A stretch of DNA of 64,000 bases, from the IMG/VR virus record IMGVR_UViG_3300026459_000010, positions 1-64,000 of that record. The stretch is one strand, 5' to 3'. Position numbers and translations under genes: made by a program. The notes beneath the pieces were generated by a model. The model did no database searches, was not told where the DNA came from, and was given only the letters and a program-made list of their open reading frames with translations. Below, piece after piece: positions 9,476-64,000 of this stretch. Position 1 is the first letter of the stretch. Each line of letters starts with the position of its first letter. This stretch comes from a virus.

Positions 9476-12400
9476 ATGGCACTAACATCACCAGGCGTAC
9501 AAGTAACGGTAATTGACGAGAGTTTTTACACACCTGCAGAACCAGGTACAACTCCGCTTATCGTTGTGGCCACAGGACAGAATAAAACAAATGCAGCAGG
9601 CACAGGCACCGCTGCTGGAACATTAAAAGCAAATGCTGGTAAGGCTTATAAGATGACAAGCCAGAAAGATTTGGTAGATACATTTGGTGTTCCGTTCTTT
9701 GAAAAGACAGCCAGTGGATCACCAATCCATGGCGGAGAGCGTAACGAATACGGTCTACTAGCAGCATATAGCTATCTAAGCGCATCGAACGCAGCTTTCA
9801 TTGTAAGAGCAGACATAGATCTTGATCAACTAGAAGCAACAGCAGACGCCCCGGGAGCAAATCCAACAGACGGCGCATGGTGGCTAGACACACAAAATAC
9901 AACATGGGGTATTCAAGAATGGAACAGCGCAACCGTTCCAAACGGTGGACAAAAGTTTGCCGCAAAAACTCCAATTGTTTTATCCGATGACGATACATCA
10001 AAATTAGACGGTTCAGATGTTCCTTTAGCATCAGTTGGTTCTATTGGAGATTATGCCGTAGTTGCAGTATCAACAGGTCCAGCAGCAGTATACTTTAAGA
10101 CTCCTGGAAACAGCGGTGCTGGTGTAACAGCCGGTAGCTGGGTTTTAGTAGGCAGCAATGACTGGGCAGCAAGTTGGCCAACCGTTAGCGGTGGCGCCGT
10201 GACAGCGTTAACAGCAGCAGATACATTCTTAATCAATGGAACATCAGTTGCAGTTCAATCAGGCGGCAGCGTAAGTGCAAGATTATCAGCAACAGCAAGT
10301 TATATTAACGGCTTAGGCATTACTGGTGTGAGTGCTAAAGTAGCAAACAGCAGATTATATCTATACTCAGATGGTTCTACAGATACAGCAGGCGATTCAA
10401 CACTAAGTGGTGCTATTGTAATTGCAACAGGTTCGGGAACCGTTCTAACTGATCTAGGAATTGCAACAGGTACATACCTACAACCAAAACTAGTTCACGC
10501 TCCACACACTTCTGTTCCAACATTTAAGAGAACAGATAATCCTTCAACAAAACAAGGATATCCAACAGGTTCTGTATGGATTAAAACTACAGAGCCAGGA
10601 AATGGTGCTCGTTGGAGAGTTAAGAAATATAGTTCAGCTACACAAGCATGGACAGCAATTTCTGCTCCAATCTATGGAACAACACATTCCGCAGATTATT
10701 ATTTAGATCGCTCAAATGGCGGTTTAGCAATTGACAAAGATTCTTTATTTGTTCAATTTAACAGCGACGAAGAATTTAGTTATTCAACACCAAACGGTAC
10801 TCCGTCAACTGACACTACATTAGAAACTTCTAAATTTAAAATTTGGAGACGTGCTGTTAAAGGTGCAACAACAATTACTTCTAAAGTAATTACTAATGGA
10901 ACACTAAGTGGTGCTAAGACATTTACAATTAAACAATCTGTTGTAGGTGATGCAGCTCTAAGTACAGCAGCTACCGTTACATTTACAGCAGCAGGCGACA
11001 GCACTGATGCAGAAACAATTGCAGCAGCAATTAACGCATTAACATTTTATGACTCAACTGGCTTAGTTGAAATTACAAACAATGTTGAAGCAAGTGTTTC
11101 AGCAGACAACCAGTTAGTAATCAAACACAAAGCTGGCGGCGAAATTAGATTTAAAGATACATCAAGCACAGCATTTGCAACATTATTCAGTGCATCTGCT
11201 TATGTGTTAGATTTAAGCTCAGCAGCACCTGGCGCAGCTGACGGTTATCTAGCAACTTACTGGCAACCACTAGCAACTGCTGGATTTACAGCAAGTGGCG
11301 ATGCTCCATTAAATGAAGCAGAAGACGGCCAATTATGGTTTAACAACGTTTATAGCGATGTTGACATCATGGTTCACAATGGTTCTACATGGAAAGGTTA
11401 CAAAAACGTATTTGCTTCAACAGATCCAGCAGGTCCGTATGTAGGTGCAAGTATGCCAACAACACAACAAGACGGTGTAACATCTCTTGTAACTAACGAT
11501 TTGTGGATCAGCACAGCTGATATGGAAAACTTCCCAACAATTTATCGCTTTAATGATGACATTCAAGGCGGTATTACCGATAAGTGGGTTTTAGTTGACA
11601 AGACTGATCAAGTTTCAGAAGAAGGAATTGTATTTGCTGATGCACGTTGGGCAACTAGCGGCGGCGACACATCTGTAAGTCCAACTCTTGCAGCATCAAC
11701 AATTGTTGATTTATTAAGCAGTGACTTCTTAGACTTTGACGCTCCAGATCCAGCACTATATCCAAAAGGCATGTTGCTATGGAACCTACGTCGTTCTGGC
11801 GGTAACGTAAAACAATATAGAAATAGTTACATCGATGTCACAGCAGACAACGGACGCATGGGCAATGTAAGCATGGAACTATACGTAACAGATCGTTGGA
11901 CAACAGCATCTGGTAATAACGAAGACGGTTCTGGTACATTTGGTCGCAAGGCACAACGTAAAGTTGTTGTTCAAGCACTTAAGAGTGTAATTGATACAAG
12001 TTCAGAAATCCGCGATGAAGAGCGCAGAAACTTTAACTTAATTGCTGCACCTGGATATTCAGAAGTGTACAGCAACCTAGTTAACCTAAACATTGATCGT
12101 GGCATGACAGCATTTGTTCTTGCAGATACTCCATTCCGCTTAAAGAGCAACGCAACAGAACTTATTAATTGGGGTACAAACGCAAACGCAGTAACCGACA
12201 ACGGTGATGCAGGTGTTGTAACTTATGATGAATATTCTGCAATGTGGTATCCAAATGGATTTACAACAGACTTAAGTGGTGTTAATGCAGTTGTTCCTGC
12301 AACACACATGATGCTTAAGACAATTGCACTAAGCGATCAAGTTTCTTATCCATGGTTTGCACCAGCAGGTACAAGACGTGGCGGTATTACTAATGCAACA

Positions 12401-16570: not shown

Positions 16571-17311
16571 ATGAATTTTCATGAATTGCTAACAAAAATG
16601 CAAGAATTAGACAGGCCAGTTGAAGAGTGCGGTGAGCCAATGAACATGCCTGCTCCAGCAATGCAAACTCCTCCAACGACACCTCCAAGCATGAGTGTTA
16701 ACCTAAATGCTCAAGGCATGGATAATATTGAGGACTTATTAAAGTTAATTACTAAAGTCAATCCTGATACAATTAAATCAGATCCAACTTTACCATCTTT
16801 AACACCTCCAGGTCCTTCTATCGCTAGCATTAAACCAGAATTACCCCCACTAAAAATGTTACCTGACTTTGATAAACCAGGTGATGACAAAATGAATCCT
16901 CCGGGATTACCTGGCCTTGGCGGCGGTGGTGACGAACCAAAAGTTATCGATATCGATATTGACGGTGATAAAGAAAAAGAAGGTCCCGGCCCAGACGGTA
17001 GTCCTGAACATGAAGGTCCAGAAGGCGAAAAACCTGAACCAGAAGAAATGGACGACAAAGAAGAAAAAGACGACGACGAAGATAAAGAAGATGAGGCATT
17101 TGGTAATTCAGTTGGAAGTTCAGAGCCAGAAACTAAAGATGCATCATTTTCAACACACGACGGCAACGATTTAAACAAATCAAAAGGAACATATCCTAAA
17201 GTTGCTGGTGGCGATAACCCAATGCAAAAACAAAAATTTGAGGGCGATTTAAGATCTCAAATTCGTGCAGAACTAATGCAACGATTAGCAGAAGCTAAAG
17301 GAGCGAAATAA
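16571..17311 (+). CDS. Pro/Gly/acid-rich virion-associated protein
   Basis: This 246-residue protein has an amphipathic N-terminal helix (MNFHELLTKMQELDRPVEEC), a long Pro-rich stretch, a Gly/Pro/Glu/Asp-rich disordered centre with an acidic run (EEKDDDEDKEDE), and a C-terminal helix (RSQIRAELMQRLAEAKGAK). Only three bases separate it from the previous gene, and it overlaps the next start. The low complexity explains a long spurious minus-strand frame here. I infer a scaffold-like or linker component of the virion. No family is recognised. Confidence 0.65.
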   Translation: MNFHELLTKMQELDRPVEECGEPMNMPAPAMQTPPTTPPSMSVNLNAQGMDNIEDLLKLITKVNPDTIKSDPTLPSLTPPGPSIASIKPELPPLKMLPDFDKPGDDKMNPPGLPGLGGGGDEPKVIDIDIDGDKEKEGPGPDGSPEHEGPEGEKPEPEEMDDKEEKDDDEDKEDEAFGNSVGSSEPETKDASFSTHDGNDLNKSKGTYPKVAGGDNPMQKQKFEGDLRSQIRAELMQRLAEAKGAK

Positions 17312-17667
17312 TGGCAAGCGTAACAAGAACTAATGGCTTACAGGCAACCGTAGGTACATTGTATTCTCCTAATTGCAACTTGTTTAAGATTCAAGTTCAA
17401 AATAACAGCAACTCTAACATTGATCTTCGCGCAGAAGATGACGCAGTTGACGAAGTAGTAGAAGTTATTGTTAAAGAATTAAATCCTATGGCTTACTTTA
17501 CCGTAGATGCTGCTACAGGGTTAATTTATGTTGTAATGGATAAAAACATCAACGATGCTAGCGAACTACAAACTAGAATTCGTAATTTGGGTTCTTCAGT
17601 AGGTGCAAACGGCGTCGATGTTCGTGGAACTGACGTTACATTAGGTACAAGTTTTACCGTTGCTTAA
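17311..17667 (+). CDS. Small predicted structural protein
   Basis: This 118-residue protein contains VTRTNGLQATVGTLYSPNC, the NSNIDLRAEDDAVDEVVEVIV segment and repeated beta-like segments ending in a Gly/Val/Thr-rich tail. It starts at the stop of the preceding gene and ends just before a strong terminator (17685-17710). This makes it the last gene of the gp16 late unit and probably highly expressed. Size and composition fit a head decoration or similar beta-rich protein, but I recognise no family. Confidence 0.6.
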   Translation: MASVTRTNGLQATVGTLYSPNCNLFKIQVQNNSNSNIDLRAEDDAVDEVVEVIVKELNPMAYFTVDAATGLIYVVMDKNINDASELQTRIRNLGSSVGANGVDVRGTDVTLGTSFTVA

Positions 17668-55090: not shown

Positions 55091-55113
55091 TTCACGCTCC
55101 TTACTATACCTAT

Positions 55114-55921: not shown

Positions 55922-56275
55922 TTAAATTGCTTCAAAAGCCTTAAGGGCTTCTTGTGCGCTCTCGTCCAAATAGACAGCGTCCATAGCCCGTTGCTTCTCA
56001 GCGGCTACCAACTTGCGATATGCTTCCAGCTCTGCCTTTTTGGCTTCCATAGCAGGCCACTCCACGTCCGTAGGGTTGAGGTAAGGACCCGTATAGTCCA
56101 CCTTGTCTGCTTTAAGGGTAATCTCGCCGGATTTAATGCCCTCAAACACCATGCCCCAAGTAGGCTGTTCTGGACGGCCACTTGCGCCGTAAAGTTCTAC
56201 TGCTTTGGCCTGCACTTTTTCTTGTGCTACTTCGTTAAGACGACGGACAAAATACTCACGTGCTTGTGCTTCCAT
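55922..56275 (-). CDS. Early hypothetical protein, helical
   Basis: This 117-residue protein begins MEAQAREYFVRRLNEVAQEK and has a long C-terminal coiled segment (AMEAKKAELEAYRKLVAAEK). The ATG is preceded by TAGGAGCGAAAC, the GGAGCGAA leader. It has promoter 56307-56335 and terminator 55888-55916, so it is a complete monocistronic unit. I recognise no family. Confidence 0.65.
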   Translation of the reverse strand: MEAQAREYFVRRLNEVAQEKVQAKAVELYGASGRPEQPTWGMVFEGIKSGEITLKADKVDYTGPYLNPTDVEWPAMEAKKAELEAYRKLVAAEKQRAMDAVYLDESAQEALKAFEAI

Positions 56276-57308: not shown

Positions 57309-57634
57309 TAGGTTCTCCTGGGATTCAACAGGGCGGCTGCTTCCTTACGAAGTTTCCCTGCTCTTCGATACATTTCGTCTGCGGTTTCGCTGAGTTCTTC
57401 GCTTTTGAGCTGTTGCAGTTTGCCGCCCCCAAACTCGCGATCAATGTAGTATTCAGTTAGGTGGTTCTTGATCATTAGTGTTAGATCTGAACCGGAATCA
57501 CTGGGACAAATAAAGCGAACTGGACATCGCCCCCATCCACCGTATTCTAGGAACTCTGCGTAGTAGCGCCTATGATCTTTGTTATAAGCATCGAATGCTA
57601 CCAGAGGTCTTGCAAGGTATTCTAATTTGCTCAT
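57308..57634 (-). CDS. Early/late hypothetical protein
   Basis: The ATG at 57634 (MSKLEYLARPLVAFDAYNKD) is preceded by TTAAATA with a 5-nt gap, and further up by an early promoter (57674-57702). So this gene seems to carry both classes of signal. The 108-residue product has RYYAEFLEYGGWGRCPVRFI, a helical end and an RKEAAALLNPRRT tail. No family is recognised. Confidence 0.62.
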   Translation of the reverse strand: MSKLEYLARPLVAFDAYNKDHRRYYAEFLEYGGWGRCPVRFICPSDSGSDLTLMIKNHLTEYYIDREFGGGKLQQLKSEELSETADEMYRRAGKLRKEAAALLNPRRT

Positions 57635-57639
57635 GTGTG

Positions 57640-57646
57640 TATTTAA
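57640..57646 (-). promoter_or_regulatory. Late box of the gene at 57308-57634
   Basis: TTAAATA on the minus strand, 5 nt (CACAC) before the ATG. An early promoter lies further upstream. Confidence 0.55.
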
Positions 57647-57673
57647 GCTCCTGTGCTCCAATTCGTTAATACT

Positions 57674-57702
57674 ATTATATGATCAGTTAATCCAGTTGTC
57701 AA
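57674..57702 (-). promoter_or_regulatory. Early promoter of the gene at 57308-57634
   Basis: GG then TTGACA, 17 bases, TATAAT on the minus strand. A late box lies closer to the ATG (57640-57646). Confidence 0.85.
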
Positions 57703-57710
57703 CCGAAGTC

Positions 57711-57747
57711 AAAAAAAACGCCCTAGTATACGTGTGCATACTAGGGC
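57711..57747 (-). terminator. Terminator after hairpin copy A
   Basis: A 10-bp stem GCCCTAGTAT/ATACTAGGGC followed on the minus strand by eight T. Confidence 0.9.
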
Positions 57748-57752
57748 CCAAG

Positions 57753-57791
57753 GTTACCGCTACCGGGAGCGAATCGGATTTAAGCGGTAAC
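57753..57791 (-). ncRNA. Conserved 3'-end hairpin, copy A, with anti-Shine-Dalgarno loop
   Basis: On the minus-strand RNA, GUUACCGCU pairs with AGCGGUAAC (9 bp) and closes a 21-nt loop. The loop contains CCGAUUCGCUCCCGG. The stop codon of the preceding gene lies in the loop. A terminator follows at once (57711-57747). The same 15-nt motif lies in the loop of a second hairpin (63691-63725) with a different stem. AUUCGCUCC in the loop is complementary to GGAGCGAAU, the leader of some early genes. Confidence 0.5.
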
Positions 57792-58082
57792 AGCCTCTGC
57801 CTTCGCGGCAGTAGTCTTAACAGCTTTAGGGGCTGGATTCTTCTTCTCAGCGTAGGCGATCGCAGCTTGTACAGCAGCATTGCCTGAGCCGAAACCAACG
57901 CTCTTGAGGTGTTGTACAGCCTCAGCCTTGGTCATCTCTGATGGCAGCTCAACGAGCTCAACATCCTTGTGACCGTTCTTTGCCAAGATCTTGATGCGCA
58001 TAACATCGTTAGCGAAACGAAGCTTGGTCTTACCTTCCAGTGTCGAAACACCAGCAACCGCAAATTTCTTATCTGTAGCCAT
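57780..58082 (-). CDS. Small early protein with Ala/Lys-rich tail
   Basis: This 100-residue protein has MATDKKFAVAGVSTLEGKTK, MRIKILAKNGHKDVELVELP, a helical KAEAVQHLKSVGFGSGNAAV and a Lys/Ala/Pro-rich end. It resembles small abundant phage proteins found in T4-like and T7-like cyanophages, with no assigned role. The start at 58082 follows GGAGAAC. A strong promoter precedes it. A hairpin with the loop motif of copy A and a terminator end the transcript. It may be highly expressed. Confidence 0.65.
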   Translation of the reverse strand: MATDKKFAVAGVSTLEGKTKLRFANDVMRIKILAKNGHKDVELVELPSEMTKAEAVQHLKSVGFGSGNAAVQAAIAYAEKKNPAPKAVKTTAAKAEAVTA

Positions 58083-58138
58083 TTTAAAGTTCTCCAAAAA
58101 GTGTGTGTGTTAAAGATATGCCTATTGGGCATGTTAAT

Positions 58139-58167
58139 AATGTAGCATCACTATTCAAGTTTGTCAA
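58139..58167 (-). promoter_or_regulatory. Early promoter of the gene at 57780-58082
   Basis: GG then TTGACA, 17 bases, TACATT on the minus strand. The leader of about 50 nt holds a small hairpin (ATGCC/GGGCAT). Confidence 0.8.
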
Positions 58168-58358
58168 CCATTTGTTTGTCCAAATTGCGGAATTACTTGA
58201 ATAGTAACGCTGTCCTTCTCGTCCAAGGCGGCGATGAACTCGTCGTCGTAGACCAGATCCTGCATGGCCAAATCGATCATTTCTTCGACTCGGCCCACGT
58301 CTGCCTTGCCGTCCCCGGCGCAGACCACGTGAAAACTGAAGTTAAACTCTCTAGGCAT
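58164..58358 (-). CDS. Small early protein
   Basis: This 64-residue protein begins MPREFNFSFHVVCAGDGKAD and reads like a small ferredoxin-like fold (VGRVEEMIDLAMQDLVYDDE, SVTIQVIPQFGQ). It overlaps the upstream gene by 8 bases. The start codon lies inside the end of that gene. No family is recognised. Confidence 0.6.
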   Translation of the reverse strand: MPREFNFSFHVVCAGDGKADVGRVEEMIDLAMQDLVYDDEFIAALDEKDSVTIQVIPQFGQTNG

Positions 58359-58650
58359 TTTGCCATGACTCCCATTTCAAAACGAACATTGTGTAAGATT
58401 CGTCTTTCAAATATATAGCACTCTTAGAATCATCCCAGGCCCATTTTGGTTGGACCCCATCGAATAACTCTGGGCGAGCTAGGTGCAATTCGGCACTCGG
58501 ACCGAATTGCGTCCACAAGTAGTTGCGAGACTTAATCCAATTCTTTTGATCTGTAAGCCTCGCACCTGCGCCATAACTGATAAACTCGACACGATGGCTA
58601 AATCTTCCATAACCATCGTATCTCTTGTCGAGTTTAACAATGTGCATCAT
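58351..58650 (-). CDS. Small early protein
   Basis: This 99-residue protein starts MMHIVKLDKRYDGYGRFSHR (ATG at 58650 or 58647) and has SRNYLWTQFGPSAELHLARP and SAIYLKDESYTMFVLKWES. I recall a similar YDGYGRF…R..F..G..W…G.S.E…P.W….K.IYLK pattern in unassigned phage proteins. It is coupled to the upstream YubB-like gene. Confidence 0.62.
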   Translation of the reverse strand: MMHIVKLDKRYDGYGRFSHRVEFISYGAGARLTDQKNWIKSRNYLWTQFGPSAELHLARPELFDGVQPKWAWDDSKSAIYLKDESYTMFVLKWESWQNA

Positions 58651-59273
58651 TCTGAAACAAGTCCTAGTTTCTTGTTCTGCTCAACACCATCCTTGATCCA
58701 CTCTGTGAGCTCTTCGTCCTCTTCCTGGAATTCACGGATAGCCTCGGCGATGCAGAATGCTTCGTCCAACTCTGGATAGTTCTGCTCGATCTCATCGGCA
58801 CTCATGCCTTCTAGGCTAAAGTCCTCGCAGTTGCCATCTTCGTAAATACCAGCAAATGCCATACCGGATTCGTAGAACATTGCGTTCACACGGAAGCCAA
58901 GTTGTTCCAACTTCTGATAAGCATTCACGGGTGGTGACCATGCTGAATCAAAAGAAGTGAATAGACTCTTACCGTCTGGGTGGATGTCGCTTTGTCCATC
59001 ACCGCCTACATCCCATTTGGTTCCCCATTCACCCACGCAGAAGTCATACCAGTTGCTGTAGCCATATTTGGCCACATTGGCTTTCATCTGTGCTTCCAGA
59101 TCCTTTTGTTTGGCATCATCCCCGTAGGATCCTGCCATGGTCTCTGTGAGTTCTTTGGGCACAGGAATAAACTCCTGCAGGAACTCTCCACGATCAAGTG
59201 CTTCTTTAGCACGGGTAATCATTGCTGGATCATCATGCTCCAGCGTCAAGTTGTTGTTGCACCAATTAGGCAT
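58647..59273 (-). CDS. YubB/DUF1281-like ferredoxin-fold protein
   Basis: This 208-residue protein starts MPNWCNNNLTLEHDDPAMIT, the standard opening of the DUF1281/YubB family. Further family features are NWYDFCVGEWGTKWDVGGDG, SFDSAWSPPVNAYQKLEQLG and MAFAGIYEDGNCEDFSL. Such proteins occur on plasmids and phages with unknown role. The leader is GGAGCGAAT immediately before the ATG. This is the best match to the loop motif of the 3'-end hairpins. The promoter lies at 59299-59327. Confidence 0.85.
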   Translation of the reverse strand: MPNWCNNNLTLEHDDPAMITRAKEALDRGEFLQEFIPVPKELTETMAGSYGDDAKQKDLEAQMKANVAKYGYSNWYDFCVGEWGTKWDVGGDGQSDIHPDGKSLFTSFDSAWSPPVNAYQKLEQLGFRVNAMFYESGMAFAGIYEDGNCEDFSLEGMSADEIEQNYPELDEAFCIAEAIREFQEEDEELTEWIKDGVEQNKKLGLVSE

Positions 59274-59298
59274 ATTCGCTCCTTAAGTTAGTGTTAAA

Positions 59299-59327
59299 AT
59301 TATACAATCATTTTCTCAAAAGGTCAA
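59299..59327 (-). promoter_or_regulatory. Early promoter of the YubB-like gene
   Basis: GG then TTGACC, 17 bases, TATAAT on the minus strand. The leader ends GGAGCGAAT directly before the ATG. Confidence 0.86.
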
Positions 59328-59511
59328 CCAAATGTGCATTGGCCAAGTTCTGATCTACGCGGTCTTGGAACTCCCTCTCGATCACCACGGCACAGCGTCC
59401 GGCGATCTGCTCCATCGTCCTTAAGATCTTGACACGGGCCATCGGAGTTGTCTCTGACGATCCCAATGCATCAACGGCTCGCTTCAGGTATTCAAATTCA
59501 TTTTGATTCAC
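59308..59511 (-). CDS. Small early protein, GTG start
   Basis: The 67-codon frame starts with GTG at 59511 after GGAG with a six-base gap. The product (NEFEYLKRAVDALGSSETTP and RVKILRTMEQIAGRCAVVIE) is helical and ends DLLRK. An early promoter lies at 59537-59565, with a weaker -10 (TAAACT). The frame is used without an ATG, as for two other genes here. The function is unknown. Confidence 0.58.
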   Translation of the reverse strand: MNQNEFEYLKRAVDALGSSETTPMARVKILRTMEQIAGRCAVVIEREFQDRVDQNLANAHLVDLLRK

Positions 59512-59536
59512 AGCTGGCTCCTTTCACTATGCCTAT

Positions 59537-59565
59537 AGTTTAACACCAAAAAGCCAAGTTGTCAA
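59537..59565 (-). promoter_or_regulatory. Early promoter of the GTG-start gene
   Basis: GG then TTGACA, 17 bases, TAAACT on the minus strand. The -10 is weaker than in its sister promoters. Confidence 0.7.
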
Positions 59566-59580
59566 CCAAAATGATGTACG

Positions 59581-59772
59581 TTAGCTGTTGATTGTATCGA
59601 ATGGGCTGTAGGTGCGATCGTGAGCAGCTAGCTCTTTGTCCAACCATTCGCCGATGTCTTCGTTGTAGACTAGGTCGCCCGGGTCTGCAACATCTTCCCA
59701 ATCAGCATCCTCGTCAATGAGTACACCATCTTCATCATAAAAGGGATCTTCAACGATCATACCAAAAGTCAT
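59581..59772 (-). CDS. Small acidic early protein
   Basis: This 63-residue protein is rich in Asp and Glu (VEDPFYDEDGVLIDEDADWE, DVADPGDLVYNEDIGEWLDK). It starts within the stop of the upstream gene (ATGA). Strongly acidic small phage proteins can mimic DNA and inhibit host nucleases or polymerases, but nothing specific is visible here. Confidence 0.58.
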   Translation of the reverse strand: MTFGMIVEDPFYDEDGVLIDEDADWEDVADPGDLVYNEDIGEWLDKELAAHDRTYSPFDTINS

Positions 59773-59978
59773 GTTGTTTCCTTTGATTTTAAGAATGTTA
59801 CCAATTCATCTTCCACGTCTTCCAGCTCGAAGTTGTCAGTGGCCCAATCAACCCATTCTTCGGTCATTGGGTCCACTTCTCCATTCATGAGCTTTTCACG
59901 TGCTTCCTCTTCTGAACCTGCTTCAAGTTCGTAGACTTCGCAGATTATAGAATTGCGCCAGAACGTGTATCTAGGCAT
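59769..59978 (-). CDS. Small acidic early protein
   Basis: This 69-residue protein has PRYTFWRNSIICEVYELEAG, SEEEAREKLMNGEVDPMTEE and an acidic end DNFELEDVEDELVTFLKS. It resembles DpnD/PcfM-like small proteins (beta-hairpin then helix with EEA..K…G). It starts as TAATG over the stop of the gene upstream, in a four-gene coupled run from 60246. Confidence 0.6.
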   Translation of the reverse strand: MPRYTFWRNSIICEVYELEAGSEEEAREKLMNGEVDPMTEEWVDWATDNFELEDVEDELVTFLKSKETT

Positions 59979-60106
59979 TACTTCGCAGCTTCTTTAGATA
60001 CTTCCTGGACTTTGGCAACCCCATTATCGAAGATCTTAGCGATGCCCGATAATCCTACGGTAGCCACTACGAGACCAAAGATTGTACCTGCGATGAATAC
60101 TTTCAT
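59978..60106 (-). CDS. 42-residue membrane protein
   Basis: The frame reads MKVFIAGTIFGLVVATVGLS and then GIAKIFDNGVAKVQEVSKEA with AK at the end. An N-terminal hydrophobic helix could be a signal anchor. It is preceded by ACAGGAGCAATC and starts by ATGA overlap with the upstream gene. It stops as TAATG with the downstream gene. The tight coupling supports translation. Confidence 0.62.
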   Translation of the reverse strand: MKVFIAGTIFGLVVATVGLSGIAKIFDNGVAKVQEVSKEAAK

Positions 60107-60246
60107 GATTGCTCCTGTTCTGACATTTGTTTAAGGACTTTGCGATACTTCCAACGTGCCCAAAGCATCTGAGGGATGCCCAAGCGCCAGGCCCACATTA
60201 AGTCCATTACTATGAGCCCAAGGACAAATGCAATTACTAGTTCCAT
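60103..60246 (-). CDS. 47-residue membrane-anchored protein
   Basis: The product begins MELVIAFVLGLIVMDLMWAW, a membrane helix, and continues RLGIPQMLWARWKYRKVLKQ with a short tail. It follows a strong early promoter (60278-60306) and a purine-rich GAAAGGGGCGG leader. It is the first gene of a four-gene run. The function is unknown. Confidence 0.62.
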   Translation of the reverse strand: MELVIAFVLGLIVMDLMWAWRLGIPQMLWARWKYRKVLKQMSEQEQS

Positions 60247-60277
60247 TTACCGCCCCTTTCTGTGTCTGTGTATATGT

Positions 60278-60306
60278 ATTATAAGGCCAAATTATCTATC
60301 TGTCAA
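60278..60306 (-). promoter_or_regulatory. Early promoter of the four small genes 60246-59581
   Basis: GG then TTGACA, 17 bases, TATAAT on the minus strand. Confidence 0.85.
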
Positions 60307-60355
60307 CCATAATCTATATACGTGCATACGTGTAGCAGCGGGGCCTTTGGTGGAA

Positions 60356-60375
60356 GTGTGGCTTTTTAGCCACAC
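60356..60375 (-). terminator. Hairpin after the metallopeptidase/VWA gene
   Basis: An 8-bp stem GTGTGGCT/AGCCACAC with a four-base loop. There is no T tract on the minus side, so termination may need Rho. Confidence 0.6.
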
Positions 60376-60389
60376 CCCCCGGCACTCTC

Positions 60390-61598
60390 CTAGCCCGCCT
60401 CTTTTTCGTAGATCACCGTTTGACCAAAGGGCGCCTCTGCTTGTGTATTGCCCTTAACGATAAAGATTGTGTCGCAGTAGTCCTCAGGACCCCAACTACC
60501 ACAGGGATAGCCGTCTGTGAACATAATGAACTTCTTAGGGCGAATGTCATTCTCTTCCATGTAGGTAAAGTTGACATCAAAGTCTGTGCCACCGCCACCT
60601 TGAGGTTCATACTCAAGCAAGTCATGTGAGTTGTCATGAGTGATCTCTTGTGGGTTATAGATCTCTGTGTCAAAGCACCACAGGTTGATCTTGAAGTCCT
60701 CGTATTGGTCCATGATGCCTTTGATCTCCGAAAGGAATGTGCTGGCATCTTCTTCACCAATACTACCACTCATGTCAACAGCAATAGCCACGTCAATGGT
60801 AGTTGCTTCTTTCATGCCTGGCAAGATTGCGCCTGAGTGCATACTCTTGCGATTAACACGCTGGAAGGAGTAGTCGTTGCGAACAATGCTTTGGATCTCT
60901 TGTTGCACCAACTGACGCCAGTCCATCTTAGGCTCAGTCATAGACTTAATCATACGCATAATGCCTGCAGGAGTCTTGCCTGCACCAGCGGCCGCGGCAC
61001 TTTGGATCATTGCTTCTTTGATCTCTTGCTTGATGCGTTCTGCTTCTTCTTTGCTAAGGCTAGGCTTGCTCTTACCGTCTTTGGTCTTGTCATCTTCTGA
61101 GCCAGCACCCTCTTGTTCCTTAATGTGCTCGTCCAACAGATCGCCCAACTCTTTCATCAGTTGATCCATAGGAATCTTCTCTGCTTTTTCATACAGAATA
61201 TCGTAGATTTCTTCCCAAGCAAGTCCACGGAACTTAGGATCATAACAGATCTTAACCTCAGTGATCTTCTCACCAATACGCTCGTCTACAAGGATTTGGT
61301 TTACAGCAAAGTCCTGTGCGATGTTAGAAAGTTGACGATCACGGCTACCTACACGGCCAAAGTGATCAAACACGCAGTGAAGGATCTCGTGACCAAACAG
61401 GAACTCTAGTTTTTTCTCTGAAAGTTTTTCGATGAACTTTGTGTTGTAATAAAAGTCACGGCCATTGGTCGCCGCAGTAGGGCACCAGTCGTCAGCACAG
61501 ACTAAACGCATACGAGTTGCCATGTTGCCAAAGAACGGTGCTTTGAGCAATAGACCGACCCGTGCAGTAGTTAATTTATCAACGATGTTTGTAGACAT
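60390..61598 (-). CDS. Metallopeptidase-like/VWA domain protein (MoxR partner)
   Basis: This 402-residue protein has an N-terminal DUF2201-type zinc region (LEFLFGHEILHCVFDH, about residues 65-80) after GLLLKAPFFGNMA. An Ala/Lys-rich linker follows, then a C-terminal VWA-like domain with a MIDAS signature DVAIAVDMSGSIGE and later GGTDFDVNF and FIMFTDGYP. Such proteins are encoded next to MoxR AAA ATPases, as is this one, whose partner is the gene at 61756-62841. The pair probably acts as a chaperone or remodelling machine. It has its own early promoter. Confidence 0.85.
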   Translation of the reverse strand: MSTNIVDKLTTARVGLLLKAPFFGNMATRMRLVCADDWCPTAATNGRDFYYNTKFIEKLSEKKLEFLFGHEILHCVFDHFGRVGSRDRQLSNIAQDFAVNQILVDERIGEKITEVKICYDPKFRGLAWEEIYDILYEKAEKIPMDQLMKELGDLLDEHIKEQEGAGSEDDKTKDGKSKPSLSKEEAERIKQEIKEAMIQSAAAAGAGKTPAGIMRMIKSMTEPKMDWRQLVQQEIQSIVRNDYSFQRVNRKSMHSGAILPGMKEATTIDVAIAVDMSGSIGEEDASTFLSEIKGIMDQYEDFKINLWCFDTEIYNPQEITHDNSHDLLEYEPQGGGGTDFDVNFTYMEENDIRPKKFIMFTDGYPCGSWGPEDYCDTIFIVKGNTQAEAPFGQTVIYEKEAG

Positions 61599-61623
61599 TA
61601 GTCGCTCTCCTTAGTATGTGTAT

Positions 61624-61652
61624 ATTATAGCACCAGGATCCGGGTTTGTCAA
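61624..61652 (-). promoter_or_regulatory. Early promoter of the metallopeptidase/VWA gene
   Basis: GG then TTGACA, 17 bases, TATAAT on the minus strand, immediately after the terminator of the MoxR gene. Confidence 0.86.
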
Positions 61653-61654
61653 CC

Positions 61655-61697
61655 AAAAAGAAACCGGACGATGTTGCGTATTTACAACACCGCCCGG
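61655..61697 (-). terminator. Terminator after the MoxR gene
   Basis: A 13-bp stem (two G-T pairs) CCGGGCGGTGTTG/CAACATCGTCCGG then TTTCTTTTT on the minus strand. The loop contains TAAATAC. Confidence 0.88.
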
Positions 61698-61755
61698 CAC
61701 TCCAAAAGGTGGGCGGAAGCCCTGGGTGAGCCCCCGCCCGGCGATGGGCGAGGTC

Positions 61756-62841
61756 TTAATTCTCCATCGCTTTCAAAACATACTTACCAAAACGCTTGTG
61801 GAACTCGTCAAAGCTCTTCATCTTTGTAGCGTCCAACGGCAAGTCGTAGTTGGTAAGAGCAGTCTTAGCACCCATGACCACAATCTCAGTTGGGAAATTG
61901 TCCATCATGTAGCGGAAGAAGTTGTCTGCCTGAGCATCCCAATCTTTAACCTTTTTCTCTGCACGGTCTTTCAACTCGTAGCACAATGAAACGGTCAAAG
62001 AATACATCGCTGACACTTCCTTGATCTGAAGGTCCTTGACCTTGCCAATAAGGATGTCTTCTGCCTTAGGCAATTTGCCAGCAATCTTACGGTGAGCCAT
62101 AAACTTAACAGCCAAGCCGTCACCAATAGCACCACTTACCAATGTAGACAAAGTATCTTCGTCAACACCGTCATCACCTAACAGGTCGCTGACGAAACTC
62201 CAAGAACGAGGAGTAGCAAATGACTTGCTAGGGCTCTTAGGATCGAAGTCATACAAGTCTTGCTTGGCAAAACCCACATAACCTACAACCTCAGGATGCA
62301 CCTTGTTAAGGGTAGCCCAATCTTGCCAGTCATCAAAGTCCACCTTCATTTCCAAGTGCAGGAAGCGGTTAGCCAACGGAGCAGGCATACGATAGGTAAC
62401 ACCACGGTCACCTTCACGGTTACCAGCGGCGACTACGTCAACACCCTTAGGCAGAACATAGGTACCAACACGACGGTTCAGCACCAACTGATAGGCCGCG
62501 GCCTGAACAGCAGGAGGAGCAGAGTTCAATTCATCCAAGAAGATGATAGCAGTGGACTCTGGGTCAATGGGCAGTTCTGCGGGAGGAGCCCAAACCATCT
62601 TGCCCTGGTCTGCGTTGTAATACGGAATACCTTTGATGTCGGTGGGTTCCCAAAGTGCTAGGCGCACATCAATAACCTCACGGTTGGAATCATCACCGAT
62701 CTGCTTCACGAGATCGGACTTACCAATACCTGGAGGGCCCCACAGGAATACAGGACGACGCATTTTAATTGCGTGACGGATTGCTTTTTTGGCACCCTTA
62801 GGGCCAACTTGACGGACGGAAACGTCTTGTGCTTTTGCCAT
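61756..62841 (-). CDS. MoxR-type AAA+ ATPase
   Basis: This 361-residue protein has VFLWGPPGIGKSDLVKQI (Walker A, about residues 32-49), STAIIFLDELNSAPP (Walker B), VDVVAAGNREGDRG (sensor region) and APLANRFLHLEMKVD, typical of MoxR/RavA-type ATPases. MoxR proteins work with VWA-domain partners to activate or remodel targets. The VWA gene follows in the same direction. The early promoter (62894-62922) gives a leader of about 46 nt. The pair is transcribed early, so it probably acts on host or replication targets. Confidence 0.85.
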   Translation of the reverse strand: MAKAQDVSVRQVGPKGAKKAIRHAIKMRRPVFLWGPPGIGKSDLVKQIGDDSNREVIDVRLALWEPTDIKGIPYYNADQGKMVWAPPAELPIDPESTAIIFLDELNSAPPAVQAAAYQLVLNRRVGTYVLPKGVDVVAAGNREGDRGVTYRMPAPLANRFLHLEMKVDFDDWQDWATLNKVHPEVVGYVGFAKQDLYDFDPKSPSKSFATPRSWSFVSDLLGDDGVDEDTLSTLVSGAIGDGLAVKFMAHRKIAGKLPKAEDILIGKVKDLQIKEVSAMYSLTVSLCYELKDRAEKKVKDWDAQADNFFRYMMDNFPTEIVVMGAKTALTNYDLPLDATKMKSFDEFHKRFGKYVLKAMEN

Positions 62842-62893
62842 TCTAGACCTCGCTAATAAAAAGAGTTAAAACAATTACTTTCCCAGTATCATT

Positions 62894-62922
62894 ATTGTAG
62901 CACCTCTTGGTGCAGTTGTCAA
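62894..62922 (-). promoter_or_regulatory. Early promoter of the MoxR gene
   Basis: GG then TTGACA, 17 bases, TACAAT on the minus strand. The -35 overlaps the stop region of the preceding gene. Confidence 0.82.
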
Positions 62923-63563
62923 CCAACTTTTTTAACATAGTTGAGCTGTGTTGTTTTATCGCCACGAACATTCTTGATCTTGCCCTTGATACGGATAGTG
63001 CCTTTGACATCATCCTTGTACCAAAAATCAATAAAGCTCTCACCCATACGAGCAGTGATGCGATACTTGTTGTATTCAGGGTTGAATCGTGTGCGGATCA
63101 CTTCGATCTCCCCTACGATCTCATCACCTACAGCGCCGGAGAGTTGCTCGCTTTGATAGATCTCTCGCTTGAGCTCTGTTTGGGCCTTATCACGACGAGC
63201 TACGCTGGGTAAACAGCTGACAACAGCAAAGTCCAACATATCACGGCCAGTGAACTCGTCTTTGGCTGCAATCTTCATAGCTGTGGTCTCAAAGTCATTG
63301 ATCTTGCCAGTGAGTGCTTTGAGGGTGAATGTTTTGAAATAGTTACGATACTCTTGGCCAAGAGTGATCTCTTCTGCTGTAGGCTGAGCATTCTCTCTGA
63401 GCCAGTTCTTGACCAGAACCTTGTTGGCTTGTTTGATCACGTTATTGTAATCGATCCCGTGTGTAGCGGTAGCAGCGAATACAGGCTCTTTGCAGTAGCC
63501 GCCATTCTGTGTATCAGCCCTAACAGCTAGGCCCCAAACTTGATCTGCTGTAAATGTGCTCAT
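62919..63563 (-). CDS. Early hypothetical protein, possible OB-fold at C terminus
   Basis: The start could be the ATG at 63563 or 63566; the leader is GGAGCG followed by ATGATG, so 63563 gives better spacing. The product of about 214 residues has YCKEPVFAATATHGIDYNNV, a helical centre (RNYFKTFTLKALTGKINDFE) and a beta-rich end (KYRITARMGESFIDFWYKDD, TIRIKGKIKNVRGDKTTQLN). The end resembles an OB-fold or single-strand-binding module seen in phage host-take-over proteins. I do not know the family name. Confidence 0.62.
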   Translation of the reverse strand: MSTFTADQVWGLAVRADTQNGGYCKEPVFAATATHGIDYNNVIKQANKVLVKNWLRENAQPTAEEITLGQEYRNYFKTFTLKALTGKINDFETTAMKIAAKDEFTGRDMLDFAVVSCLPSVARRDKAQTELKREIYQSEQLSGAVGDEIVGEIEVIRTRFNPEYNKYRITARMGESFIDFWYKDDVKGTIRIKGKIKNVRGDKTTQLNYVKKVG

Positions 63564-63586
63564 CATCGCTCCTTAACAATAACTCT

Positions 63587-63615
63587 ATTATACCATCAAA
63601 CAGCAGTTCTGTCAA
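63587..63615 (-). promoter_or_regulatory. Early promoter of the gene at 62919-63563
   Basis: GG then TTGACA, 17 bases, TATAAT on the minus strand. The leader carries GGAGCGATG. Confidence 0.86.
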
Positions 63616-63661
63616 CCATTTTGGAGAGTGCCGGCCTGTGGCTTTTTTGCAACAAACGGCC

Positions 63662-63688
63662 AAAAAAATAGGGCCCTTAGGACCCTAT
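63662..63688 (-). terminator. Terminator after hairpin copy B
   Basis: ATAGGGTCC/GGGCCCTAT (one G-T) with a TAA loop and seven T on the minus strand. Confidence 0.88.
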
Positions 63689-63690
63689 TC

Positions 63691-63725
63691 CAAAACCGCC
63701 CCGGGAGCGAATCGGCTTGGTTTTG
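63691..63725 (-). ncRNA. Conserved 3'-end hairpin, copy B, with anti-Shine-Dalgarno loop
   Basis: On the minus-strand RNA, CAAAACC pairs with GGUUUUG (7 bp) around a 21-nt loop that again contains CCGAUUCGCUCCCGG. The stem shares no sequence with copy A, which supports structure rather than simple duplication. It lies between the stop at 63738 and a terminator at 63662-63688. The loop length equals that of copy A. Confidence 0.5.
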
Positions 63726-63737
63726 TGGAGCGACCTA

Positions 63738-64000
63738 TTAAGCCAATGTCATGCCCATGTTACGAGCTAAGTAGCCTAGAGCAACGATCTCGCGTGAAGG
63801 ACGGCCTAGTTCATACTCAGTAACGGTAACACCATTACCTGCCTTGCGAGAGTTAGCATAAACAGCATAACCAGCTTGGCGGAGACGGCTTGCTTCAGCA
63901 GCCAGGTTCTTTACGCCAAAACGCTTCTCAGCTTGGCTTGCAGTTAGTTTGTCACCATTTTGTAGTGCAGTAAAAATCTTAAAAGTCTTTGAGTCTTTAG
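63738..64000 (-). CDS. HTH-like phage protein, 5' truncated by the window edge
   Basis: The visible 86 codons read KDSKTFKIFTALQNGDKLTA, SQAEKRFGVKNLAAEASRLR, QAGYAVYANSRKAGNGVTVT and EYELGRPSREIVALGYLARN, ending MGMTLA. The order helix - LTAxQAxxRFGVKN - SxLRQxGYxVY - YxLGxPSRExVALGY is a winged-helix-like family that I recall from many cyanophages and other marine phages, usually unassigned. The start lies beyond position 64000. It is followed by hairpin copy B and a terminator, as the gene at 57780 is. Confidence 0.68.
   Translation of the reverse strand, partial: KDSKTFKIFTALQNGDKLTASQAEKRFGVKNLAAEASRLRQAGYAVYANSRKAGNGVTVTEYELGRPSREIVALGYLARNMGMTLA

Follow-up and report, generated by a model that had tools for sequence, protein, structure and literature searches.

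Two RNA hairpins, each at the 3' end of a minus-strand gene in the window (by which we mean the whole 64,000-nt stretch of viral DNA analyzed here), present the same loop, AUUCGCUCC, which is exactly antisense to GGAGCGAAU, an extended Shine-Dalgarno sequence. The hairpins, their near-fixed loop on compensated stems, the exact antisense match, the enrichment of the matching class of ribosome-binding site (RBS) in the neighboring gene cluster and the joint occurrence of the two features in relatives are shown here by sequence. The hairpins are likely to be a phage antisense element that, by pairing in trans with the extended Shine-Dalgarno of many early genes, silences them as a regulon; no expression data bear on this. 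Four parts of this account are inferences: the early timing of the cluster, action in trans by a stable fragment from the 3' end, repression instead of activation, and the role in early shut-off.

Two hairpins with one loop and unrelated stems

The window belongs to a virus record of 68,160 bases with T4-like, myovirus-like content, including tail sheath, tail tube, large terminase, ssDNA-binding protein and replicative helicase families. The initial annotation had claimed an identical 15-nt motif in two hairpins with 21-nt loops and unrelated, perfectly paired stems, and this held: the motif, CCGATTCGCTCCCGG, lies at 57763-57777 and 63701-63715, both on the minus strand, and the outer stems are unrelated in sequence and each fully paired (Table 1). 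These are the sole matches in the whole record at up to two mismatches, and the reversed pattern has none. At up to three mismatches the window contains one extra match, at 9851-9865, and three matches were reached in 1 of 100 shuffles. The claim of an open 21-nt loop held only in part. The motif parses as the 9-nt loop closed by an inner stem of 3 bp (CCG/CGG) within an outer stem that varies, and the 21-nt loop is probably partly closed by the inner pairing, for which there is comparative support (below). The folding z-score is -3.06 for copy 1 and only -1.12 for copy 2, which is therefore not established by energetics alone. Copy 1 begins within the upstream gene, whose final codons make up the 5' arm and whose stop codon falls inside the hairpin, so that ribosomes translating the parent gene could open it.

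Table 1. Hairpins, adjoining features and predicted target sites in the window
Feature	Position	Strand	Details
Anti-RBS hairpin copy 1	57753..57791	-	motif location, folding, homologue covariation
Copy 1 outer stem	GTTACCGCT 57791-57783 / AGCGGTAAC 57761-57753	-	
Copy 1 inner stem	CCG 57777-57775 / CGG 57765-57763	-	
Copy 1 9-nt loop	AUUCGCUCC 57774-57766	-	
Copy 1 terminator-like hairpin	57711..57747	-	12-bp stem 57747-57720, then U run; directly after copy 1; terminator scan
Copy 1 parent gene, 100 aa	57780..58082	-	own RBS GGAGAACU, no seed match
Anti-RBS hairpin copy 2	63691..63725	-	motif location, folding
Copy 2 outer stem	CAAAACC 63725-63719 / GGTTTTG 63697-63691	-	
Copy 2 inner stem	63715-63713 / 63703-63701	-	
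Copy 2 9-nt loop	AUUCGCUCC 63712-63704	-	
Copy 2 terminator-like hairpin and U run	63662..63690	-	seen in folding; missed by simple terminator scan
Copy 2 parent gene, winged-helix protein HTH_39 (PF14090)	63738..64000	-	likely ATG just past window, record position 64013
Predicted target RBS GGAGCGAAU, full 9-nt complement	59274..59282	-	adjoins ATG 59273 of 208-aa gene 58647-59273
Predicted target RBS GGAGCGAA	56278..56285	-	117-aa gene 55922-56275
Predicted target RBS GGAGCGA (7 nt)	63566..63572	-	214-aa gene 62919-63563
Weaker predicted target GAGCGA in RBS GGAGAGCGA	61602..61607	-	DUF2201/VWA gene 60390-61598
Weaker predicted target RBS GGAGCG	55095..55100	-	82-aa ORF starting 55090
Predicted target RBS GGAGCGAA, outside early cluster	17300..17307	+	upstream of 118-aa gene 17311-17667

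The order coding region, hairpin, terminator had also been claimed, and it held for both copies, each followed by a terminator-like hairpin and a U run. The terminator scan returned 5 sites over the whole region against a shuffle mean of 5.4 and is therefore little proof by itself. That the transcripts are early, as the annotation had it, remains an inference from sequence alone that rests on sigma-70-type promoters: promoter-like sites of this type number 16 compared with 8.6 in shuffles, and several small gene modules have perfect ones. Perfect TTGACA-17-TATAAT promoters occur on the minus strand of 57400-64000 at 63615, 61652, 60306 and 57702, apparently one per small transcription unit.

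The function of the 100-aa parent gene of copy 1 is unknown, and it has no match in Pfam, PHROG or NCBIfam. The HTH gene that precedes copy 2 has AAAGGAAAA before it. Given this sequence and the RBS GGAGAACU of the 100-aa gene, both copies would need to act in trans. The hairpin is found 3' of at least three different genes, namely the 100-aa gene, the HTH_39 gene and one for an AAA-ATPase-like protein, this last in other phages (Pfam AAA_16 at 31.0 bits, slightly below the cut-off of 32.6; phrog_1250, unknown function). The AAA-ATPase-like protein of the present record is 71% identical to that of G010 and 64% identical to that of G068, and its gene has the target RBS in all three.

No described RNA family had been recognized in the initial annotation, and this is supported by Rfam 15, which has no match in the window at the gathering threshold. 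Rfam found only tRNAs in 12 motif-bearing loci, and a lax search of copy 1, copy 2 and L031 gave sub-threshold matches or none. NsiR1, Spot 42, uc_338, STnc130 and Atu_C8 were rejected as candidates, their Rfam matches being sub-threshold only and several of them lying over terminators.

The stems covary in loci fetched by homology

Loci were fetched by protein homology to the upstream gene (the parent of copy 1 or copy 2), which avoids selection by the motif itself. Homologues of the 100-aa gene gave 27 distinct 3' regions, 26 of which have TCGCTC close behind the stop codon and 19 the exact ATTCGCTCC; the copy-2 hairpin is still present in the sole exception, L228. In a further 41 distinct regions, mostly more distant, TCGCTC is present in 25 and absent in 16, two of which (L246 and L251) have a one-base variant.

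The covariation set consisted of 49 hairpins chosen for TCGCT behind the stop codon. When aligned, these contain 62 both-side changes, compared with 30.0 +/- 5.1 after shuffling (0 of 500 shuffles reach 62); slid controls give 10-22. Pairing in the inner helix stands at 95.2%, each of its three pairs shows both-side changes (7 cells in total), and the inner pairs seen include CCG/CGG, TCG/CGA (L226) and CTG/CAG (L232); the weakest outer pair is formed in 32.7% of the 49. Three Watson-Crick inner pairs flank 103 of the 243 TTCGCTC contexts in the homology-fetched loci, compared with a mean of 2.35 and a maximum of 9 for permuted seeds (up to 60 seeds). In this second analysis, outer stems of at least 7 pairs occur in 62%, as against 19% with swapped 3' halves. 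RBS contexts were left out of the count, as the A-rich flanks of reverse-complemented RBSs mimic the inner stem (ATA/TAT).

Because the stems are compensated, the inner pairs exceed their controls and the loop is nearly fixed, the hairpin is an RNA structure under selection; its stems covary, and its least variable part is the loop UUCGCUCC. The annotation had proposed as much from the conserved loop and the exchanged stems, and would have withdrawn it had no further copies with compensatory stem changes existed; many copies were found, and compensation is frequent. An alternative is that the motif is a DNA site for recombination, module exchange or packaging that merely looks like a hairpin, and its occurrence after several different genes would fit such a role. 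However, the compensatory changes in both stems and the fixed orientation beside stop codons and terminators favor RNA, and a DNA site would be expected to have conserved stems, so that this alternative is all but excluded.

The loop matches an extended Shine-Dalgarno of the same phage

Read as its reverse complement, the loop gives GGAGCGAA(U), a Shine-Dalgarno core followed by a specific tail. The match of the loop to RBSs of early genes in the same phage was absent from the initial annotation. Besides the GGAGCGAAU and GGAGCGAA sites of Table 1, GGAGCGAA also precedes the AAA-ATPase-like gene at 65599, beyond the window in the same record, and about eight more early-strand ORFs have a shorter match (GGAGCGA, GGAGCG or GAGCGA) before them. 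The complementarity thus extends beyond the Shine-Dalgarno core to RBSs common to several genes, which meets a criterion for a trans-acting base-pairing sRNA. The loop:RBS duplex has a value of -14.3 kcal/mol, compared with -5.2 for the RBS of the copy-1 parent itself and -7.6 for the 16S tail (the 16S letters being background knowledge). A 9-nt match before a 52-aa ORF at 65847 was rejected as chance-like, the Shine-Dalgarno core not being involved.

Across six hairpin-bearing records, CGAA is the top 4-mer after GGAG at RBSs (tied in G001), with 4, 5, 7, 7, 9 and 11 sites, or 43 in total, while the next tail has 15. When sites within 15 kb of the hairpins and on the hairpin strand are counted as near, CGA follows GGAG at 55 of 151 near sites and at 5 of 274 sites elsewhere in the same six records (Fisher p = 1.15e-22). 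The contrast is not significant in the record of the window alone (5 of 24 near, 1 of 15 elsewhere; p = 0.24), and the claim of enrichment therefore rests on the family. Positions 1-50000 of T4, an outside control with few sites, have CGA at 0 of 15 GGAG sites.

Could GGAGCGAA be no more than a preferred early Shine-Dalgarno, or the target of some other factor, spread by module shuffling, with the hairpin having an unrelated role or acting on host mRNAs? In favor are the small modular genes, of which several have a perfect sigma-70-type promoter, and certain other phages whose genes have a different upstream or RBS sequence in common: for L321 (ACGGAGCAA), L320 (AGGGCAAA) and L264 (GCGAGGTATA), no hairpin antisense to that sequence was found in the stretches searched. 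However, this explanation leaves the antisense loop unaccounted for. The RegB nuclease of T4 cuts at GGAG; a search for RegB (PF10715) recovered it from T4, the positive control, and from none of 14 phage records, which may be fragments. Targeting of the host is not excluded and could coexist with targeting of phage genes. Overall we regard the preferred Shine-Dalgarno explanation as very unlikely.

Spread of the motif among viral contigs

The exact 15-mer is present in at least 120 viral contig stretches, in some of them by chance, as in GC-rich contigs. Many copies sit in hairpins with differing stems, often after TAA, and either a terminator-like hairpin follows or the hairpin is itself terminator-like. 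Whole-record motif searches took in 50 of the 120 loci, and 33 of these 50 records have at least two places within 2 mismatches, 43-81 nt apart in 13 of the 33; the reversed pattern had 0 of 50. Three antisense seeds occur within about 70 nt or less in L345 (8377-8444) and two tightly packed seeds in L352 (10303-10338), arrangements that resemble a multi-seed sRNA.

The full 15-nt reverse complement, CCGGGAGCGAATCGG, was found in ten contigs (L047, L028, L027, L025, L048, L102, L038, L009, L079 and L082), in eight of which it stands directly before an ORF. No second copy within 2 mismatches was found in the four such records searched whole (G007, G014, G015 and G026). In L009, L079 and L082 the complement precedes similar GTG-start proteins, identified as endonuclease VII (PF02945) by a check on L079 only. 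In L047 and L025 it lies downstream of a TAAATA element and before similar small proteins that, by eye, have a signal-peptide-like start and that have no Pfam match.

Hairpin and RBS class occur together in relatives

When homology-fetched loci of at least 8 kb were clustered and scored by a folding criterion (82 clusters kept, 3 of 85 dropped for length), CGA followed GGAG at 325 of 983 sites in the 48 clusters with a hairpin and at 67 of 497 sites in the 34 without (p = 1.1e-9). A second set was anchored on the HTH gene. Here 53 of 80 HTH loci entered and 39 were counted, those dropped being shorter than 8 kb, truncated in their 3' regions or duplicates, and CGA was found at 149 of 419 sites in 22 loci with the hairpin compared with 22 of 242 in 17 loci without it (p = 4.6e-7). 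This set was scored by sequence because fold-based calling had missed the motif-bearing loci L069, L284, L286, L288, L291, L293, L299 and L312. Relatives without both features tend to be more distant; the association tests are therefore not phylogenetically independent, and relatedness was not corrected for.

The 19 records behind loci scored as hairpin-less, which are not all such loci, were searched again whole. G064, G073 and G068 contain 11, 7 and 6 clustered genes with GGAGCGA sites, respectively. Behind each cluster, on its own strand, come tandem antisense seeds (139937/139981, 48910/48974 and 5006/5084), which lie about 0.1 kb behind the last GGAGCGA gene in G073 and G068 and about 1 kb behind it in G064. 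The second seed of each pair is a clean loop; the first has no clean fold in the stretch folded. Since these three records were at first scored as hairpin-less, features lying outside the 20-kb loci can be overlooked. A copy-2-type hairpin is present in G070 along with three matched genes, and in G067 and G077 the matched sites continue up to the end of the contig, which could have truncated a hairpin; G069 resembles these two, judged from positions alone. Leaving aside G066 (below), the other 11 records have 0-3 matches each to TTCGCTCC, by count alone.

This joint occurrence bears on a further alternative, in which the hairpin binds a protein or stabilizes or processes the 3' end in the manner of a retroregulator, so that a protein reads the loop and its RBS match is incidental. 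The hairpins do lie at 3' ends, directly before or inside terminator-like structures, and an RNA-binding protein would likewise select for a fixed loop and free stems. On the other hand, the fixed nucleotides exactly complement an RBS tail that is enriched in the neighboring genes, the hairpin and the RBS class co-occur, and the whole-record searches again found both side by side. We therefore consider this alternative unlikely and favor base pairing with the RBS.

Sharp coevolution of loop and RBS is not shown

No clean case of a changed RBS with a matching changed loop was found in L343, L313, L321, L320, L264, L273 or L349. In L349/L260, 6-7 RBSs read GGAGCGC(A), a one-base seed mismatch, and both nearby loops are unchanged AUUCGCUCC. 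L199 and L229 have the loop ACUCGCUCC, yet no GGAGCGAG is present among their listed RBSs, and L343 and L313, with GGAGCA-type RBSs, have an ATTGCTCCG element that no loop presents. L228 has GGAGCGGA at 5 RBSs, which still pair through a G-U wobble. G066 has eight matched sites and no UUCGCUC hairpin, and two hairpins with a CUCGCUC loop lie behind its 345-aa gene; its RBSs have GGAGCGAG at 3 of 8 compared with 9 of 144 (p = 0.017), a comparison chosen after the pattern had been seen. A variant loop CUCGCUCC matched to the RBS GGAGCGAG is thus possible in G066, and the hint is post hoc and suggestive only.

Discussion

What might a phage do with one loop carried on unrelated stems at the 3' ends of several genes? 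In the mechanism that we propose, early transcripts would end in a hairpin presenting the loop, followed by or fused with a rho-independent terminator, and the loop would base-pair with the GGAGCGAA(U) common to many early genes of the same phage. Predicted targets are the 208-aa, 117-aa and 214-aa genes of the window and the AAA-ATPase-like gene and others just outside it. Pairing would mask the Shine-Dalgarno and block ribosome loading, and as the 3'-end RNA built up with the early transcripts, translation of the early regulon would drop. Whether the element is a free small RNA or acts within the mRNA, whether it needs a chaperone, and whether the outcome is repressive are matters of inference, and the host is unknown.

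The principle has precedents in known anti-Shine-Dalgarno RNAs. The alpha-r14/NfeR1 sRNAs of alpha-rhizobia carry an identical anti-Shine-Dalgarno motif unpaired in hairpins with highly different stems, and NfeR1 silences a target through pairing at the translation initiation region (PMC10746234). The phage hairpins likewise keep an anti-Shine-Dalgarno loop while the stems differ. However, the generic motif CCUCCUCCC of the alpha-r14 RNAs is absent from the phage loop, with only CUCC in common, and NfeR1 is a bacterial sRNA, whereas the phage element lies at 3' gene ends and is matched to a CGAA-tailed Shine-Dalgarno of the phage's own genes. LhrC of Listeria is a multicopy sRNA in which several UCCC sites bind the target Shine-Dalgarno region, two of them located in loops, one being the terminator loop (PMC4132741). 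Unlike the phage element, LhrC and other UCCC-motif sRNAs are bacterial sRNA genes with a generic C-rich motif, and LhrC-type UCCC sRNAs are not known to have a co-adapted regulon. In the c4 antisense RNA of phages P1 and P7, sequences likely to lie in loops complement the RBS region of the ant mRNA and block its translation (PMC12197685). The hairpins described here resemble c4 in having a loop complementary to a phage RBS, and they have it for many genes; c4 differs in having a single target mRNA in the relevant section of that review, whereas here a seed of 8-9 nt faces many genes through their shared RBS. Rfam includes a c4 model, and no match to it was found in the window, the 12 motif loci or the lax searches of copy 1, copy 2 and L031. 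Skipping-rope RNA is a phage hairpin motif with a conserved loop, and it was not among the Rfam matches in these same searches, the inclusion of its model being unconfirmed. The phage element differs from the known anti-Shine-Dalgarno RNAs in its match to an extended Shine-Dalgarno shared by a phage gene cluster. The relevant sections of a 2025 review of phage-derived sRNAs give examples whose targets lie in the host or are limited to one or a few phage mRNAs (PMC12197685). In the open-access literature searched, the 13-mer GATTCGCTCCCGG is absent, and no phage sRNA acting on early genes or RBSs, nor any anti-Shine-Dalgarno sRNA of this description, was found as judged by titles and abstract openings.

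No cultured system with the hairpin was found in the phage-collection searches, which left out the hairpins of the HTH relatives. The isolated-phage collection has no DNA match to 57650-58120 or 40000-64000, and a search of 50,697 phage records at E 0.1 gave no relative for the 100-aa gene. For the HTH gene the phage records gave 9 distant relatives, and the L005 hairpin region used as a query gave 3 weak matches at E 5. As to the host, a profile search of genome contigs gave just two MAG contigs of doubtful origin.

By analogy, the job of the hairpin RNA would be comparable with that of the T4 RegA protein, which competes with the ribosome for the initiation region of about 30 mRNAs and so represses their translation (PMC3014915); in both, many mRNAs would be repressed translationally at that region. 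RegA differs in being a protein that reads AU-rich unstructured sites, whereas the hairpin RNA would read by base pairing. RegA (PF01818) was found in 0 of 22 records of the group, which may be fragments, and was found in T4. Because the 22 records include phages in which no hairpin was seen, this absence is not specific and a replacement of RegA is speculative. A bolder reading, which we offer tentatively and would not yet bet on, is that uncultured T4-like and jumbo phages, a large group of them, use base pairing for what RegA does in T4. In this reading the extended Shine-Dalgarno would be the address label of a regulon and the tandem or duplicated 3' hairpins its shut-off switch, and the pair of label and loop would persist across wide distances even as the stems, host genes and positions vary.

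If the antisense mechanism is correct, a lytic-type phage would encode its own regulon-level RNA switch, matched to the ribosome-binding signal of many of its genes. The hairpin family would gain a function, the regulons of metagenomic phages could be predicted by reading from loop to targets, and the translation-control part would be testable in laboratory E. coli.
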